A stretch of 50,091 nt of DNA from Deltaproteobacteria bacterium. GTDB taxonomy: Bacteria > Desulfobacterota > GWC2-55-46. Below the pieces are notes generated by a model, which was not told where the DNA came from, made no database searches, and saw nothing but the letters and a program-made list of their open reading frames with translations. The position numbers and the translations under genes are program-made. Shown piece after piece: positions 10,114 to 46,373 of this stretch (the stretch's first letter is position 1; each line of letters starts with the position of its first letter). The DNA lies in contig JACRNO010000076.1 of the NCBI GenBank assembly GCA_016234855.1, positions 1 to 50,091 of the forward strand, given 5' to 3'.

Positions 10114-10145
10114 GGATAACTAATAACCGATAACGGATAACCGAT
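10114..10145. repeat. Four 7-bp repeats (GATAAC-type) directly before nnr
   Basis: GGATAAC, TAATAAC, CGATAAC and GGATAAC follow in strict 7-nt phase, then CGAT and the TTG start of nnr. The same array type precedes atpA (24709-24736) and kdsA (45515-45542). No ribosome binding site is visible in any of the three cases. Confidence 0.8.
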
Positions 10146-11717
10146 TTGAAGCTCGCTATTGCCGATACCATTCGTGAGATAGACAGGGCGGCTGTCGAGG
10201 ATTACGGCATGACAGGCGCCCAACTCATGGAAAACGCGGGCCGCGGCGTGGCCTGCGCCGTGCTGGCCGAGCTTGCATCGACAGGCGCGAAAGGCCGCGT
10301 TGCCGTCATCGCGGGCAAGGGCAATAACGGCGGGGACGGCTACGTCGCGGCCAGACACCTTCGGAACGCCGGTCTTGACGTCATGGTATTTTCCCTTGCA
10401 AGGCCGTCCGAATTGAAGGGCGACGCCGCGCTTAACGCGAAGGTCTGGGCGCGGATGGGCGGGGCAACTGCAGGTATCATCACGAAGGCGGATATTCGCA
10501 GGCACGCCCCTGCCATCAGGCATGCCTGCATAATAGTGGACGCTATCTTCGGGGTCGGGCTCAAGACGCCTGTCAAGGGCGTCCATGCCGAGGCCATCGA
10601 ATTCATAAATTCCATCGGTAAAAAGATTGTTGCCGTTGACGTGCCGTCCGGCATAGACGCCGGGAGCGGCGCGGTCATGGGCGCGGCAATCAAGGCCTCG
10701 TTGACCGTCACCATGGCAATGCCGAAGCCAGGGCTTTACCTGTATCCCGGCAGAGAATATGCGGGCAGGGTCGAGGTCGTTGATATAGGTGTGCCTGTGG
10801 CGCTCCTTGCGGCAGCGGGCGATACGAGCGGTTATAGCCTGATTACGCCGGATGACGTGGCCGTTGTGCTGAGGCCGCGTAACGCTGATTCGCATAAGGG
10901 CAGCTACGGGCATTTATTTGTGCTTGCGGGTTCGCCGGGCAAGACCGGCGCAGCATACATGTGTGCAACAGGGGGGATGAGGGCAGGGGCCGGGCTTACG
11001 ACCATCGGCCTGCCGGAAAGCCTTGAGCCTGTCATGGAAGCGAAGACGACCGAGGTGATGACAACCGGGCTGCCGGAGACTGCCGGGCATCTCCTTGGCA
11101 GCGTGTCGTTTGAGGCGGTCTGTGCCGTGCTAAAGGGCAAGGCTGCCGTTGTAATAGGCCCTGGCATTGGCCTTGATGTTGATACGACCGGTTTTCTCAA
11201 ACGGCTGCTGAAGGTCTTAAAGTCGCCGGTTGTGATAGACGCGGACGGTCTTGGCGCATTTGTCGGGTGCGTTAAGACCTTGCGCGAGGTGAAAGCCCCG
11301 CTTGTCCTTACCCCGCACCCGGGCGAGATGGCGCGGCTGCTTGATATGAAGACAACTGAAGTGCAGGCCGACAGGCCGGGCGCCGCGCGAAGGCTCTGCG
11401 CGATGACCGGCGCGGTAGTAGTGCTCAAGGGCGCGGCCACAATCGTTGCCGCGCCGGATGGCGGGATATTCATAAACCCGACCGGCAATGCCGGGCTTGC
11501 CACCGCAGGCACCGGCGACGTGCTGGCCGGTATGATAGGCGGACTTCTGTCTCAGGGCTACGGCCCGGTCGAGGCGGCCTGCGCAGCGGTCTACATACAC
11601 GGCGCTGCGGCAGACGAGGTGAAGGCTGCAAGCGGCGAGACAGGCATGATGGCAACAGACCTTCTGCCCGTGATACCGGGGGTAATGCGCTCGCTATGCA
11701 GGACGCCGGGCGCATGA
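10146..11717 (+). CDS. nnr: Bifunctional NAD(P)H-hydrate repair enzyme Nnr
   Basis: Repairs hydrated NADH and NADPH. The N-terminal epimerase domain (about 1-215) has 'GKGNNGGDGYVAARHL' and 'VDVPSGIDAG'. The C-terminal ADP/ATP-dependent dehydratase domain (about 225-515) has 'GSPGKTGAAYM', 'LTPHPGEMARLL', 'VVLKGAATIVA' and 'GNAGLATAGTGDVLAGM'. At 523 aa both domains are complete. The start is a TTG that follows a 7-bp tandem array rather than a Shine-Dalgarno site. Its stop codon overlaps the tsaE start in ATGA, so the two are probably translationally coupled; the nnr-tsaE pair is common in bacteria. Confidence 0.95.
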   Translation: MKLAIADTIREIDRAAVEDYGMTGAQLMENAGRGVACAVLAELASTGAKGRVAVIAGKGNNGGDGYVAARHLRNAGLDVMVFSLARPSELKGDAALNAKVWARMGGATAGIITKADIRRHAPAIRHACIIVDAIFGVGLKTPVKGVHAEAIEFINSIGKKIVAVDVPSGIDAGSGAVMGAAIKASLTVTMAMPKPGLYLYPGREYAGRVEVVDIGVPVALLAAAGDTSGYSLITPDDVAVVLRPRNADSHKGSYGHLFVLAGSPGKTGAAYMCATGGMRAGAGLTTIGLPESLEPVMEAKTTEVMTTGLPETAGHLLGSVSFEAVCAVLKGKAAVVIGPGIGLDVDTTGFLKRLLKVLKSPVVIDADGLGAFVGCVKTLREVKAPLVLTPHPGEMARLLDMKTTEVQADRPGAARRLCAMTGAVVVLKGAATIVAAPDGGIFINPTGNAGLATAGTGDVLAGMIGGLLSQGYGPVEAACAAVYIHGAAADEVKAASGETGMMATDLLPVIPGVMRSLCRTPGA

Positions 11718-14826: not shown

Positions 14827-15046
14827 ATTCTTCGCTTCCTACTCGCAGGGCAAGCTCTGAGCGAAGAACTGAGATTCTTCGCGGAGTTTATCCTGAGCGC
14901 AAAACCAAGATTCTTCGCTTCGCTCAGAATGACACAGCGAAGGGCTCAGAATGACATAGCAAAGGGCACAGAATGACAAAAAAAGAATAAATCAGAGCTT
15001 CCTTAGAGATTCTTCGTCGCAAAAGCGCTCCTCAGAATGACAGATA
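14827..15046. repeat. Composite GAAGAATCT/CAGAATGAC repeat block, right of the GIY-YIG gene
   Basis: At least five copies of AGATTCTTCG or CAGAATGAC(A) in both orientations. The part GAGATTCTTCGCGGAGTTTA through AATAAATCAGAGCTTCCT is shared with the element at 31173-31375, and the last piece (AGATTCTTCGTCGCAAAAGC...) is the reverse complement of that element's left half. Confidence 0.8.
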
Positions 15047-23987: not shown

Positions 23988-24011
23988 GCGTTTGATATGG
24001 ATTGGATAGGG

Positions 24012-24143
24012 GATTGGCGATATGGGAAGCGGGAGGTGGTAAAGACTTACCGTCCGTTGCTTTTCCACCCTCTTTGTAAGGACGGGATGCGGGATGAGTT
24101 TATGATTTTACCGCCCCCCGCGTCCCACTTCCCATCTCCCAAT
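24012..24143. repeat. 132-bp hairpin element before atpF
   Basis: GATTGGCGATATGGGAAG at the left and CTTCCCATCTCCCAATC at the right are near-perfect inverted arms; inner motifs GGTGGTAAAG and TTTTACC also pair. Related to the hairpins at 8751-8816 and 24532-24596. Confidence 0.75.
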
Positions 24144-24202
24144 CATCTCGGGCCTGTTGCGCCGGATAGCCGGAACAATATCTGTTTGTTGCAGAGGTGG
24201 CA

Positions 24203-24532: not shown

Positions 24533-24626
24533 GAGGTGGGGTAGTATGTGGTAAGAATTTTTTACCACCACGCACATCCTACGTCCTACCTCCGTCTTAT
24601 CGTTCCCACGCTCCAGCGTGGGAACG
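24532..24626. repeat. Two hairpin repeats between atpF and atpA
   Basis: GGAGGT...ACCTCC with inner GTGGTAA/TTACCAC forms one hairpin overlapping the atpF stop (24532-24596). The palindrome CGTTCCCACGCTCCAGCGTGGGAACG (24601-24626) is a second, unrelated element of a type common in proteobacterial genomes. Confidence 0.75.
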
Positions 24627-24708: not shown

Positions 24709-24741
24709 CGATAACAGACAACTGACAACCGATAACCGATT
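24709..24741. repeat. Four 7-bp repeats (CGATAAC-type) directly before atpA
   Basis: CGATAAC, AGACAAC, TGACAAC and CGATAAC in 7-nt phase, then CGATT and the ATG of atpA. No Shine-Dalgarno site lies between. The same arrangement precedes nnr and kdsA. Confidence 0.8.
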
Positions 24742-26490
24742 ATGAGCGAAATCAGAGGAAAGATATACGGCGTTGCCGGGCCTACGGTCATTGCAAAGGG
24801 CATGGACGGGGTGAAGATGAATACCGTCTGCCTCGTGGGCAACTCGGGCCTGCTTGCGGAGGTCATCCGCATCAGGGAAGGCCTTGCCACGCTCCAGGTC
24901 TACGAGGACACCGGCGGGCTGACCGTAGGCCAGGAGGTCGTCAGTCATGCAAAGCCGCTTACGGTTCTGCTCGGTCCCGGCCTGTTGAGCAATATATACG
25001 ACGGCACGCAGAGGCCGCTATATAAAATCAAAGAGGCGGGCGGGGATTTCATCGGCAAGGGGCTCAAGGTCTCGCCCATGGATACTGCAAAGCCGTGGCC
25101 TTTTATTCCGTTGAAAAAACAGGGTGACGCCGTTACCGAAGGCGACGTGCTCGGCACGATACAGGAGACCGAGTGCATCAGTCACAAGGTCATGGTCCCG
25201 CCGGGGGTAAGCGGCACGGTAAAAACCATAGCGTCTGCCGAGGTCTCGGGGCGCGCCCCGGTTTGCACGTTCGAGGACGGCTCGTTCGTAAACCTGTATC
25301 AGGACTGGCCCGTGAGAAAGCCCAGGCCGTTTATTGCGAAGCTGCCGCCGTCCATGCCTTTTATAACAGGTCAGCGCATGTTCGACACGCTTCTGCCCGT
25401 TGTCCTCGGGGGCACGGCCATAGTGCCGGGCGGGTTCGGCACGGGCAAGACCGTGGTCGAGCAGACGATTGCCAAATACGGGCGGGCCGACATAGTCATA
25501 TATATCGGCTGCGGCGAGCGCGGCAACGAGATGACCGAGATATTGACGGACTTCCCGGCTCTCAAAGACCCGGTCACCGGTCTGCCGCTCAGTCACCGCA
25601 CCGTCATCATAGTCAACACCTCGAATATGCCGGTCGCCGCAAGGGAGGCGTCTCTTTTTACCGGCGTGACAATCGCCGAGTATTACAGGGATATGGGTTA
25701 TAACGTCGCGCTTCTGGCCGACTCCATCTCGCGTTGGGCCGAAGCCCTGCGCGAGATCTCATCCCGGCTTGAGGAGATGCCGGGCGAGGAGGGTTTCCCT
25801 CCGCATCTTGCCACGCACCTGGGCAGTTTTTACGAGCGATCGGGCAAGGTAAGGTGCCTTGGGCCTGAAGATAGATACGGCTCAATCACGGTCATAAGCG
25901 CGGTCTCGCCCCCGGGCGGCGATTTTTCAGAGCCTGTGACCCAGGCCTCGCTCCGATTCGCGGGCGCACTGTGGGCGCTCGATCCCGACCTCGCATACCG
26001 CAGGCACTTTCCGGCAGTCAACTGGCAGGCCTCTTTCAGCCTCTATTATAACGAGTTGAAGGACTGGTTCACGAAGGAGGTCTCGCCTGAGATGCAGGGC
26101 CTGCGACAGCGGTTGTTAAAGCTCCTTCAGCGCGAGAACGAGTTGAAGGAGATAATCCAGATAATCGGGGTCGAGGCCCTGCAGGAATCCGACAGGCTGA
26201 TGCTGGAAGCCGCCATCATCGCCCGCGACACCTTCCTTAAACAATCGGTCTTTAACGAGGCGGACGCATTCAACTCGTACGAGAAGCAGTTCTGGATGAT
26301 GAAGGTGATCTTCGCGTTCGCTGACAACGCCGAGGCCGCTTTGAAGAGGGGAGTCTACATAGAAAAGATTATCGACACTCCGCTCCGTGCGGACGTGATG
26401 GCCATGCAGGACATACCGAGCATCGGCTTCGCGCAAAAGGCAGAAGCCCTAATCGAAGCGATAGAGCGGGAGTTCGGCGCAGCGGAGTAG
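24742..26490 (+). CDS. atpA: V/A-type ATPase catalytic subunit A
   Basis: The nucleotide-hydrolysing or synthesising subunit. It has the non-homologous-region insert typical of A subunits (about residues 115-185, 'DAVTEGDVLGTIQETE'), a P-loop GGFGTGKT at 230-237, 'GCGERGNEMTEIL', 'NTSNMPVAAREASLFTGVTI', 'LADSISRWAEALREIS' and 'VSPPGGDFSEPVT'. Length is 582 aa, normal. Many archaeal A subunits have GPFGSGKT; here Gly and Thr replace the Pro and Ser. Start is ATG after a 7-bp array. atpB does not follow directly; a 2.1-kb insert lies between. Confidence 0.96.
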   Translation: MSEIRGKIYGVAGPTVIAKGMDGVKMNTVCLVGNSGLLAEVIRIREGLATLQVYEDTGGLTVGQEVVSHAKPLTVLLGPGLLSNIYDGTQRPLYKIKEAGGDFIGKGLKVSPMDTAKPWPFIPLKKQGDAVTEGDVLGTIQETECISHKVMVPPGVSGTVKTIASAEVSGRAPVCTFEDGSFVNLYQDWPVRKPRPFIAKLPPSMPFITGQRMFDTLLPVVLGGTAIVPGGFGTGKTVVEQTIAKYGRADIVIYIGCGERGNEMTEILTDFPALKDPVTGLPLSHRTVIIVNTSNMPVAAREASLFTGVTIAEYYRDMGYNVALLADSISRWAEALREISSRLEEMPGEEGFPPHLATHLGSFYERSGKVRCLGPEDRYGSITVISAVSPPGGDFSEPVTQASLRFAGALWALDPDLAYRRHFPAVNWQASFSLYYNELKDWFTKEVSPEMQGLRQRLLKLLQRENELKEIIQIIGVEALQESDRLMLEAAIIARDTFLKQSVFNEADAFNSYEKQFWMMKVIFAFADNAEAALKRGVYIEKIIDTPLRADVMAMQDIPSIGFAQKAEALIEAIEREFGAAE

Positions 26491-27042: not shown

Positions 27043-28128
27043 ATGTCGTCAATGAAAACCAGACAACGGATCTTTTCGGCCCTTATAGGGTTTTCGATGT
27101 TGTTTGTCCTGTCCGGCAATTCAAACGCCGCTGAAAAGATATTCATCAAGGAGTACACCTATCAGGCGAGCGAGATCGACAGCAAGGTAACGTCGCGCGC
27201 TCAGGCGCTTGAGCAGGCAAAAAGGCTCGTGCTCGAGGAACTCGGCACCTATCTTATTAGCAAGACCGAGGTAAAGGACTTTGCGATATCGAGCGACAAG
27301 ATTACCGTTCTTACGGCAGGCGTTGTCCAGACCGAGATATTCGACGAGAAATGGGATGGCAAAGAATATTACCTGAAGGCCCGTATAACGGCAGACCCTG
27401 ACAAGGTGGCAAAGGCCATAGACAAGCTCCGTAAGGACGAAGGCAAAACAAAAGAGCTTGAAGATGCCAAAAAGCGCGCGGATGACGCGTTGGAGGAGAT
27501 TGCAAGGCTCAAGGCAGAACTTGATGTCGTAAAAGACGATAAATCAAAACAGCTTGAATATGCAAACACAGTCAATACCTTGAGCGCAACGGATTGGTTT
27601 GAGAAGGGGTTGGCTTTTGGAAAATCCGAAGATTACGACAACGCAATAGAGGCTTTTTCACAGGCAATCGAGTTTGAGCCATATTACGTCGTTGCCTATA
27701 TTGTCCGCGGGGTTGCGTATAACATGAAAGGCCAATACGACAGGGCAATTAAGGATTATAATAAGACAATATCGCTGAAGCCGGATTACGCCGAAGCCTA
27801 CCATTTCCGCGGGGTTGCGTATGCTAATAAAGACCAATATGACAAGGCAATTAAGGATTACAATAAGGCAATATCGCTGAAGCCGGATTACGCCGAAGCC
27901 TACTATGTCCGCGGGAATGCGTATTATATGAAAGACCAATACGGCAAGGCAATAGAGGATTTTAATAAGGCCATATCGCTGAAGCCGGATTACGGCCTTG
28001 CCTACTTTGGCCGCGGGCTTGCATATAGTATGAAAAGAGAATACAAAAAGGCAATTGCTGATTCTAAAAAGGCCTGCGAGTTGGGTGATGTAGGTGGATG
28101 CTTTTTGGAAAGCGAAATGACAAAATGA
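27043..28128 (+). CDS. Exported TPR-repeat protein
   Basis: A secreted or periplasmic protein with a signal peptide ('IFSALIGFSMLFVLSGNSNAA'), a domain of about 110 residues with 'ARITADPDKVAKAIDKL', a coiled coil ('KELEDAKKRADDALEEIARL') and five tetratricopeptide repeats. The repeats follow 'YDKAIKDYNKAISLKPDYAE'-type units of 34 residues and are almost identical at DNA level in two or three units, so they expanded recently. The ATG at 27043 (or 27031/27052) fits the signal peptide; the track start at 26815 is too early. Codon use is AT-richer than the ATPase genes on both sides. Substrate or partner is unknown. Confidence 0.85.
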   Translation: MSSMKTRQRIFSALIGFSMLFVLSGNSNAAEKIFIKEYTYQASEIDSKVTSRAQALEQAKRLVLEELGTYLISKTEVKDFAISSDKITVLTAGVVQTEIFDEKWDGKEYYLKARITADPDKVAKAIDKLRKDEGKTKELEDAKKRADDALEEIARLKAELDVVKDDKSKQLEYANTVNTLSATDWFEKGLAFGKSEDYDNAIEAFSQAIEFEPYYVVAYIVRGVAYNMKGQYDRAIKDYNKTISLKPDYAEAYHFRGVAYANKDQYDKAIKDYNKAISLKPDYAEAYYVRGNAYYMKDQYGKAIEDFNKAISLKPDYGLAYFGRGLAYSMKREYKKAIADSKKACELGDVGGCFLESEMTK

Positions 28129-43729: not shown

Positions 43730-45394
43730 ATGGCACCCTCACACAATTCCGGCAAACCATCGGCCGGCGCAAAGACCGAGATAAAGACGAAGTTCATATT
43801 CGTAACCGGCGGGGTCGTCTCTTCGCTCGGCAAGGGGCTTGCGAGCGCGGCCATAGGCGCGCTCCTTGAGTCGCGCGGCCTGACCATAACGCTGCAAAAA
43901 CTCGACCCTTACATAAACGTCGACCCCGGCACCATGAGTCCGTTCCAGCACGGCGAGGTCTTCGTGACCGACGACGGCGCGGAGACCGACCTCGACCTCG
44001 GCCACTACGAGCGTTTCACAACGGCCAAGCTCACCAGAAAAAACAACTTCACCACCGGACAGGTCTACGACGCCATAATACAGCGCGAGAGGCGCGGGGA
44101 CTACCTGGGCTGCACCGTGCAGGTCGTCCCGCACGTGACCGACGAGATAAAGTCCCGCATACTCGCCCTTTCCAATAACATTGACGTCGCCATTATCGAG
44201 GTCGGCGGCACGGTGGGCGATATCGAGAGCCTGCCCTTTCTCGAGGCGATAAGGCAGCTGAGGTTCGACCTCGGCAAGGAGCAGGTCTGCTACATACACC
44301 TGACGCTCCTGCCGTATATCGCCACGGCCCACGAGATAAAGACGAAGCCGACCCAGCACAGCGTGAACAAGCTGCGCGAGATAGGCATCCAGCCCGATAT
44401 ACTCCTTTGCAGGTCCGATAGGAACCTTACCCCGGAACTGAAGGGCAAGATTGCGCTCTTCTGCAACGTCGACCGCGACGCCGTTATCTCGGCCGTTGAC
44501 GTAAAGTCCGTCTACGAGGTCCCGCTCGTCTTCCGCGACGAGGGCCTTGACGAGAAGATAGTCCAGACGCTCAACATCTGGACGCGCGCGCCGAAGCTCG
44601 AGGAGTGGGAGCGGATAGCCAGGAGGATAAACAACCCCGTCCATGAGGTCACGATAGCCATAGCCGGTAAATACGTCGACCTGCAGGACGCCTACAAGAG
44701 CCTGCACGAGGCCCTCATACACGGCGGCCTTGCCAACGAGTGCAAGGTGCATCTGCGCTATTACGATTCCGAAGAGGTCGAGAGGCGGGGCGCGGCGGAG
44801 ATACTCGGCGGCGTGGACGGCGTGCTCATACCCGGCGGGTTCGGCAACCGCGGAGTCGAGGGCAAGATTGCCGCCATTAAATACGCGAGGGAGAACGGCA
44901 TCCCGTTCTTCGGCATCTGCCTCGGCATGCAGGTTGCCATCATAGAAATCGCCAGAGACTTGTGCGGCATAAAAGACGCAAGCTCGTCCGAGTTCGACCA
45001 GGAGTGCGCCAACCCGGTCATTGATATCATGGAAGGCCAGCGCGGGGTGACTGCCAAGGGCGGCACCATGCGCCTGGGGGCCTATCCGTGCGTGATAAAG
45101 AACGGGACCAAGGCGTTCGACGCCTACGGCGCAACGGATATATCCGAACGCCACAGGCACCGTTACGAGGTGAATAACAATTACAGAGAGGCGTTGGAGG
45201 CGGCCGGGGTCGAGTGGTGCGGCCTGTCGCCGGACGGCACGCTCGTGGAGATAATGGAATACAAGCCGCACCCGTGGTTCGTGGCCTGCCAGTTCCATCC
45301 GGAGTTCAAGAGCCGCCCGGCCGCCCCGCATCCGCTCTTTACTGGCTTTGTCAAGGCCGTAATCGACGCTAAGGCCGCCAGTGCGAAGAAGTAA
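43730..45394 (+). CDS. pyrG: CTP synthase
   Basis: Makes CTP from UTP with glutamine or ammonia; here it also supplies CTP for CMP-Kdo. The synthetase domain begins '[20 protein letters not shown]' and contains '[20 protein letters not shown]' and '[20 protein letters not shown]'. The glutaminase domain (from about residue 295) has the nucleophile in '[14 protein letters not shown]' and the His-Glu pair in '[11 protein letters not shown]'. Slightly long (554 aa) through an N-terminal extension ahead of 'TKFIFVTGG'. It sits between kdsB and kdsA, a common proteobacterial order. Confidence 0.97.
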
Positions 45395-45402
45395 CTGATA
45401 AA

Positions 45403-45545
45403 GATAGTGGACAGTGGATAGTGATTAGTTTGCGTGGGTCAGGAGTTTCCTCCTGACCCGCCGGTCTCGCTGGCAAGCGGGCGGCAGGAGGAAACTCCTG
45501 CCGCTACATCAAACCGATAACCGACAACCGTCAACCGATAACCGA
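45403..45545. repeat. Heptamer arrays and palindromes between pyrG and kdsA
   Basis: Three units GATAGTG, GACAGTG, GATAGTG (45403-45423); palindromes GGGTCAGGAGTTTCCTCCTG(ACCC) and GCGGCAGGAGG-AAACTCCTGCCGC (45434-45504); then CGATAAC, CGACAAC, CGTCAAC, CGATAAC (45515-45542) and CGA before the kdsA ATG. No Shine-Dalgarno site is visible. Confidence 0.8.
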
Positions 45546-46373
45546 ATGCAAACGATAAAACTCAATAACATTACCATAGGGGGCAGCGCCCTCTTTTTTA
45601 TCATGGGGCCGTGCGTCATCGAGGACGAGGCCTCGTGTCTCGCCGCGGCCGAGAGGCTCGCAGGCATAACCGACGGCCTCGGCGCGCAGTTCGTATTCAA
45701 GGCCTCGTATGACAAGGCTAACCGGACCTCGGCCAATTCGTTTCGCGGGCCGGGGCTCAAGGAAGGCCTGAGGATTTTGAAGAAGGTGAAGGGCGCCTTT
45801 AACGTGCCTATACTGACCGACGTCCATTGCAGGCATGACGTGGCCGCGGTGGCAGAGGTTTGCGATATCATCCAGATACCTGCTTACCTTTGCCGCCAGA
45901 CCGACCTTATCGTCGAGGCGGCAAAGAGCGGCAGGGTGGTCAATATAAAGAAGGGGCAGTTCCTCTCCCCGCAGGATATGCGTAACTCCGTTGAAAAGGC
46001 CTCTGCCGCCGGTTGCAAGGGCGTATTCATAACCGAGCGCGGCACGACCTTCGGCTACAACAACCTTGTCGTCGACTTTCGCGGTCTGCCCGTCATGCGT
46101 GAGACCGGCACACCCGTGGTCTTCGACGCCACGCACAGCGTGCAGACGCCCGGCGGCATGGGCGGGTGTTCGGGCGGGGACAGGCGCATGGCAAGATACC
46201 TCGCCGGAGCCGCGGCGGCCGTGGGCATAGACGGGGTATTCATGGAGGTTCACGCGGAGCCTGACAAGGCCCTGTGCGACGGCCCGAACTCCATTGCCAT
46301 TGATGACGTCAAGGCCGTCATAGAGGAGATAACCGCGATTGATAAGGCCGTCAGGCAGGCGCGGGCTTCTTAG
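45546..46373 (+). CDS. kdsA: 3-deoxy-8-phosphooctulonate synthase (metal-dependent type)
   Basis: Condenses arabinose 5-phosphate with phosphoenolpyruvate to Kdo 8-phosphate. 'FFIMGPCVIEDEASCL' carries the Cys of the metal-dependent class (metal-free enzymes have Asn there). 'FKASYDKANRTSANSFRGPG', 'LTDVHCRHDVAAVAEVCDII', 'IPAYLCRQTDLIVEAA', 'KKGQFLSPQDM' and 'FDATHSVQTPG' follow. 275 residues, normal. The start follows a 7-bp array rather than a ribosome binding site. Its substrate is made by the next gene, kdsD. Confidence 0.97.
   Translation: MQTIKLNNITIGGSALFFIMGPCVIEDEASCLAAAERLAGITDGLGAQFVFKASYDKANRTSANSFRGPGLKEGLRILKKVKGAFNVPILTDVHCRHDVAAVAEVCDIIQIPAYLCRQTDLIVEAAKSGRVVNIKKGQFLSPQDMRNSVEKASAAGCKGVFITERGTTFGYNNLVVDFRGLPVMRETGTPVVFDATHSVQTPGGMGGCSGGDRRMARYLAGAAAAVGIDGVFMEVHAEPDKALCDGPNSIAIDDVKAVIEEITAIDKAVRQARAS

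Follow-up and report, generated by a model that had tools for sequence, protein, structure and literature searches.

Our analyses favour the interpretation that the arrays of GATAAC-type heptamers lying directly before several start codons in a deltaproteobacterial genome belong to lineage-specific, dispersed palindromic elements, which were probably inserted into the junctions between the stop codon of one gene and the start codon of the next, their adjacency to starts reflecting tight ancestral gene packing. This interpretation is drawn from comparisons of sequence within the whole 50,091-nt stretch of DNA analysed (the window), the 2.30 Mb genome to which it belongs (G000) and the genomes of its relatives.

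Three arrays of four GATAACN units each, all on the forward strand and in right-arm orientation as described below, were found in the window. The first (10115..10145; complete units at 10115-10141, then a partial CGAT) lies between the stop codon of acpS (10082) and the TTG start, at 10146, of nnr, which encodes an NAD(P)HX epimerase/dehydratase. The second (24710..24741; units at 24710-24736, partial CGATT) lies between a V-type ATPase subunit F-like gene and the ATG at 24742 of a gene named atpA in a first-pass annotation, which codes for V/A-type ATPase subunit A and not for F1 alpha. The third (45516..45545; units at 45516-45542, partial CGA) separates pyrG from the ATG at 45546 of kdsA, the gene for KDO-8-P synthase. 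The gaps from array end to start codon, 4, 5 and 3 nt respectively, agree with the 3-5 nt first noticed, and a search before the three starts found no Shine-Dalgarno (SD) sequence in any of them, also as first described; since 46% of the other sampled genes lack one too, this absence is weak evidence when taken alone. At the threshold used, these arrays were the only period-7 tracts of the window, periods 5, 8, 10 and 11 giving none and period 6 a single position. Two longer tandem repeats were also observed in the window: an intergenic 22-bp repeat, GCTCAGAATGACACAGCAAAGG, in 2.6 copies (14922-14978), and, inside an open reading frame, a 102-bp repeat in 3.5 copies with 82% matches (27702-28056), whose unit length of 34 codons suggests a TPR-like repeat.

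The pattern of three units with at most one mismatch was matched 76 times in the whole genome, and the reversed-pattern control not once. Positions were analysed in a 589 kb sample, its contigs partly picked for holding arrays, on which 504 genes were called by a home-made caller with a hexamer model. Arrays comprise three to seven units, and the seventh base of GATAACN varies (C in 83, T in 34, G in 29 and A in 8 of 154 units). Neighbouring genes could be called for 51 arrays, of which 35 face a start and 16 a stop codon. Gaps to starts are bimodal, 17 of the 35 falling at 1-5 nt and the rest mostly at 12-40 nt; gaps to stops are mostly 0-10 nt, with a median of about 4 nt for the mirror-image arm, and arrays in the opposite orientation adjoin stop codons as closely as start-facing arrays adjoin starts. 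These stop-side arrays, like the inverted arms described below, were absent from the first description.

That the positions are too regular for chance, as originally asserted, was borne out. Of the outer array ends in G000, 57% are no more than 7 nt from a gene edge, and of the inner ends 0%; placing the same arrays randomly in their own spacers gave a mean of 8% for outer ends and a maximum of 25.5% (10,000 runs). The outer-end excess recurs in a genome of the same genus, G001 (44% versus a null maximum of 33%, 5,000 runs), and in one of the same family, G004 (40% versus 27%, 10,000 runs). GATAAC peaks 2-5 nt upstream of starts and GTTATC 3-4 nt downstream of stops, and all arrays counted in the three genomes are intergenic, the one exception touching a weakly called ORF. 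Co-directional genes flank 38 of 39 array junctions in G000, which is little beyond the base rate, as 91% of all its gene pairs, and 88-91% across the three species, are co-directional; a strong preference for such genes was thus dropped. We also considered that arrays might close all reading frames and lead the caller to the next available start, and ruled this out because for each of the 18 array-abutting genes at least one relative has a start codon at aligned residue 1. We likewise rejected the provision of stop codons in every frame as the purpose of the arrays, TAA occurring in 160 of 208 units, yet GACAAC and GGCAAC units being common. Across the phylum the pattern was found in 19 of 198 sampled genomes, with a patchy distribution inside the family; another genus of the family carries longer GATAAC arrays, with at least six overlapping exact matches in succession (G012:C26:84778-87865). 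Of the genomes compared, G001, G004, G012 and G017 are array-rich, and G003, G006, G007 and G011 array-free.

Direct reading of whole spacers revealed that many arrays form one arm of an inverted-repeat element, the opposite arm being inverted, with the layout STOP-(GTTATCn)k-GTAAA...TTTAC-(nGATAAC)k-START. The right arm extends as far as the start codon or an SD, and a short, imperfect A/T-rich palindrome, for example GTAAAGATATTCCTTAAC, lies between the arms. Six copies of the core AGTAAAGATATTCCTTAACCG, with 0-3 mismatches, occur in G000, some in each orientation relative to the genes; shuffled sequence had none. G001 and G004 have dispersed cores of their own (GGTGAATGGTAAAAAACATGTCTTTATCCTTTAC and GTGAAGGTAAAA..TCCTTAAAC, respectively), which share the pattern GTTATC-R-GTRAA...CTTAAC-Y-GATAAC; the cores are species-specific and are found in both orientations. 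Several arrays have no recognisable second arm, among them that of nnr, a half element whose left arm could not be recognised. Other palindromic repeats are nested inside some elements, as in the pyrG-kdsA spacer, where a double hairpin repeat, GTCAGGAGTTTCCTCCTGAC / GGCAGGAGGAAACTCCTGCC (45440..45510, no strand assigned), lies between a stop-side array and the start-side array and is found again inside the elements at L138 and L145.

The same layout is shared by further heptamers. In G000, 25 of 387 spacer regions hold a period-7 tract and none a tract of period 4-6 or 8-12, and in G001 the count is 19 of 208 for period 7 and 0-3 for any other period. Additional arm heptamers are GTGGGAT/ATCCCAC, AGTGGTT/AACCACT and CCGTGAA/TTCACGG, often placed directly after a stop, and some of the non-GATAAC elements carry the same GTAAA..TTTAC core. 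In the window, a complete palindromic element of another family, GAGGTGG..GGTAAGAATTTTTTACC..CCTACCTCC (24533..24594, forward strand, read from the sequence), directly follows the stop of ATPase subunit F, and its family recurs elsewhere; a two-armed heptamer element, GATATGGGAAGCGGGAGGTGGTAAAGACTTACC...TTTTACCGCCCCCCGCGTCCCACTTCCCATCTCCC (23994..24180, forward), occupies the spacer before subunit F. The GATAGTG array indicated at 45403-45423 is indeed present (GATAGTG GACAGTG GATAGTG, forward), just behind the pyrG stop at 45394; it is on the stop side and belongs to a third heptamer family, AGTGGNN, which also directly follows stops at L112, L118 and L141.

Repeats of other kinds were observed beside these. 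An unrelated palindromic repeat read from the sequence, CGTTCCCACGCTCCAGCGTGGGAACG (24601..24626, no strand assigned), is nested in the spacer before subunit A, and its variant CGTTCCCAAGCTCCAGCTTGGGAACG adjoins a Y1 transposase gene (L326); repeat and gene possibly form a true REP/RAYT pair that has no relation to the heptamers. The palindromic family CCGTGAAC/CACGGTTC lies between stops and starts (L305 1423-1516, other G001 junctions, and L144 2656-3013), including junctions that bear GATAAC arrays in G000. In G093, G056 and other genomes of family f25, a near-identical 20-mer, GTTAACGGATAACGGATAAC, recurs at about ten scattered places in each genome and may be another element of the kind described here.

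Comparison with two array-free relatives, G003 and G006, carries the case for insertion. In these genomes the syntenic junctions are mostly short spacers or overlapping genes, against spacers with medians of 122-136 nt in G000: acpS and nnr overlap by 14 nt in G003 and 4 nt in G006, pyrG and kdsA overlap by 20 nt in both (with a 7-nt spacer in G001), and subunits F and A are 5 nt apart in G003. At 32 testable junctions, the ancestral spacer was taken to be whichever of the G003 and G006 values is smaller; its median is 4 nt for those G000 arrays that abut the start and 40 nt for the others (Mann-Whitney p=1e-4), and it correlates with the remaining gap to the start (Spearman 0.67, n=30, p=5e-5). 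Only 3 of 31 syntenic G001 junctions hold three or more heptamers, which points to fast turnover, and some have one or two heptamers where G000 has an array, so part of the signal could be turnover in place and not fresh insertion. Neither a target-site duplication nor a clean empty/filled pair was seen among the diverged junctions compared, the closest relative being about 75-80% identical in protein, and insertion is for this reason inferred from spacer comparison.

The most plausible course of events is that copies were inserted, in either orientation, into the spacers of consecutive co-directional genes, other palindromes sometimes becoming nested inside them, and that the only room in which insertion was tolerated was the short stretch separating the stop from the start, or from the SD. 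An element arriving at a tight or overlapping junction would then end at the start codon and leave that gene without an SD, and one at a wider junction would end upstream of an SD that is kept. Both the missing SD and the distance of 3-5 nt would thus follow from where insertion could land. In the G000 sample, an SD is present in 0 of 17 genes with gaps of at most 7 nt, in 14 of 18 with gaps of 8-45 nt, and in 54% of other genes (n=447). Genes left without an SD would be translated independently of it, the arm, which is A/C-rich and G-poor, being tolerated as their leader, and the number of units was probably altered afterwards by slippage.

Slippage of 7-mers in place, with no mobile element, might by itself produce ordinary microsatellites. 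The range of three to seven units, the one or two units at some G001 junctions that match G000 arrays and the exclusive occurrence of period 7 among periods 4 to 12 in G000 spacers would fit such an origin, which we nevertheless regard as quite improbable, given that the same heptamer occurs at dozens of unrelated junctions, in inverted pairs around a shared core, and that near-identical cores are found at six loci in both orientations. It is still less probable, indeed barely credible, that selection maintains the arms for an RNA hairpin which they form in polycistronic mRNA, serving stability, processing or the proximity of stop and start for coupled translation. Full elements do fold far better than shuffled sequences (z of -4.7 and -4.8), which follows from their being palindromes, and nearly all lie between co-directional genes, a context close to the base rate. 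Two of the three window arrays show no stable fold beyond shuffles, and the variable seventh base of the arms in 12 elements shows none of the compensatory changes expected of a regulatory RNA hairpin (identity 0.25 versus 0.29 expected, pairing 0.375 versus 0.43); hairpin selection was rejected on this absence of covariation.

An action in translation initiation, among the roles first suggested, would make the array a heptameric site for ribosomal protein S1, a cold-shock protein or another RNA-binding protein, replacing the SD, as proposed for the TAACTGA repeats (MacGregor 2015, PMC4679880). The 17 SD-less genes with gaps of 1-5 nt, the A/C-rich and G-poor composition of the arm and the same situation in Beggiatoaceae (PMC4679880) speak in its favour. 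We consider it unlikely all the same, since mirror-image arms adjoin stops equally tightly, the ancestral spacer accounts for the gap to the start, and full elements allow the array to pair with the left arm (e.g. z = -4.7). Comparison with relatives, which had been recommended as a check, also told against it, the orthologues of nnr, kdsA and subunit A beginning at the same residue with no array. Behind arrays, the start region is only slightly more unpaired than in other genes (0.524 versus 0.497 and 0.492; p=0.12 and 0.08), a small and non-significant difference on which an accessible start region was discarded as an effect of the array, and upstream gene ends, checked by eye, contained no consistent SD that a hairpin could deliver to the start. 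None of the results calls for a function of the elements. A role of the arrays in translation is possible but unsupported; they may also be targeted by a protein or a nucleic acid, a mobilising enzyme for instance.

As to such an enzyme, no GATAAC array was found within 2.5 kb of the three Y1_Tnp genes of G000, and no Y1 transposase was matched in G001, an array-rich genome (86% complete) with more arrays than G000. A Y1/RAYT transposase was rejected as the mobiliser, gene counts not tracking array counts and arrays flanking none of the genes. More speculatively, and we would sooner doubt than assert it, the preferred account of inserted elements may extend to mobile bacterial palindromes that form a class through their architecture and not their sequence. 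Two inverted arms, built in 7-nt steps from heptamers that are unrelated (GATAACC, ATCCCAC, CCACTAA, TCACGGT), would enclose a GTAAA...TTTAC-like core; an activity that works in steps of 7 nt would spread and lengthen the elements, and their repeated insertion between stops and starts would turn coupled junctions into SD-less starts.

Insertion would offer an account of a recurring puzzle, the heptamer repeats found at the SD position, which in other bacteria have been taken for translational regulation; should it apply to those as well, heptamer position would be a footprint of gene packing. It would also be a natural way in which overlapping and presumably coupled junctions are broken and housekeeping genes end up with no SD. 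The SD-less housekeeping genes behind arrays constitute a useful natural experiment on SD-independent initiation, and the 7-bp step common to unrelated heptamer families a testable puzzle.

Among known systems, TAACTGA (that is, GATAACT) direct repeats lie directly before starts where SDs are rare in Beggiatoaceae, Cyanobacteria and Bacteroidetes; translational regulation was proposed for them, mobile-element insertion was also weighed, and one inverted repeat was reported (MacGregor 2015, PMC4679880). Their heptamer, read in rotation, is related to the GATAACN unit but not exactly the same, and they comprise 2-6 units against 3-7 here; they are intergenic, with a patchy phylogenetic distribution and forward arrays ending a few nucleotides before starts mostly lacking an SD, as do 17 of our 35 start-facing arrays (at most 5 nt, SD in 0 of 17). 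In contrast, the seventh base here is usually C, T occurring in only 34 of 154 units; stop-facing arrays, of which the TAACTGA repeats have an occasional case behind a stop, are common (16 of 51), as are inverted pairs; arrays often form inverted-repeat arms with a shared core; and several unrelated heptamer families have the same layout.

REPINs, inverted REP doublets linked to RAYT transposases (PMC3116915), resemble the heptamer elements as dispersed, extragenic, non-autonomous, short palindromic doublets with a spacer and predicted hairpins, but the arms here are 7-bp tandem arrays and not one conserved REP, and no RAYT gene flanked by the repeat was found among the three Y1_Tnp genes of G000 or in G001. 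MITEs have terminal inverted repeats, a target-site duplication and a parent transposase; inverted arms are present here, but no target-site duplication was seen at the diverged junctions compared, and no parent transposase was identified. The STRR sequences of cyanobacteria are intergenic tandem heptanucleotide repeats of several sequence types, a feature shared with the GATAAC elements, and differ in the heptamers themselves; a two-armed stop-to-start layout is not known to us for STRR. The closest precedents are the TAACTGA repeats (MacGregor 2015) and REPIN/MITE-like elements, and the inverted two-arm architecture common to several period-7 heptamer families appears to be a novel variation on them.
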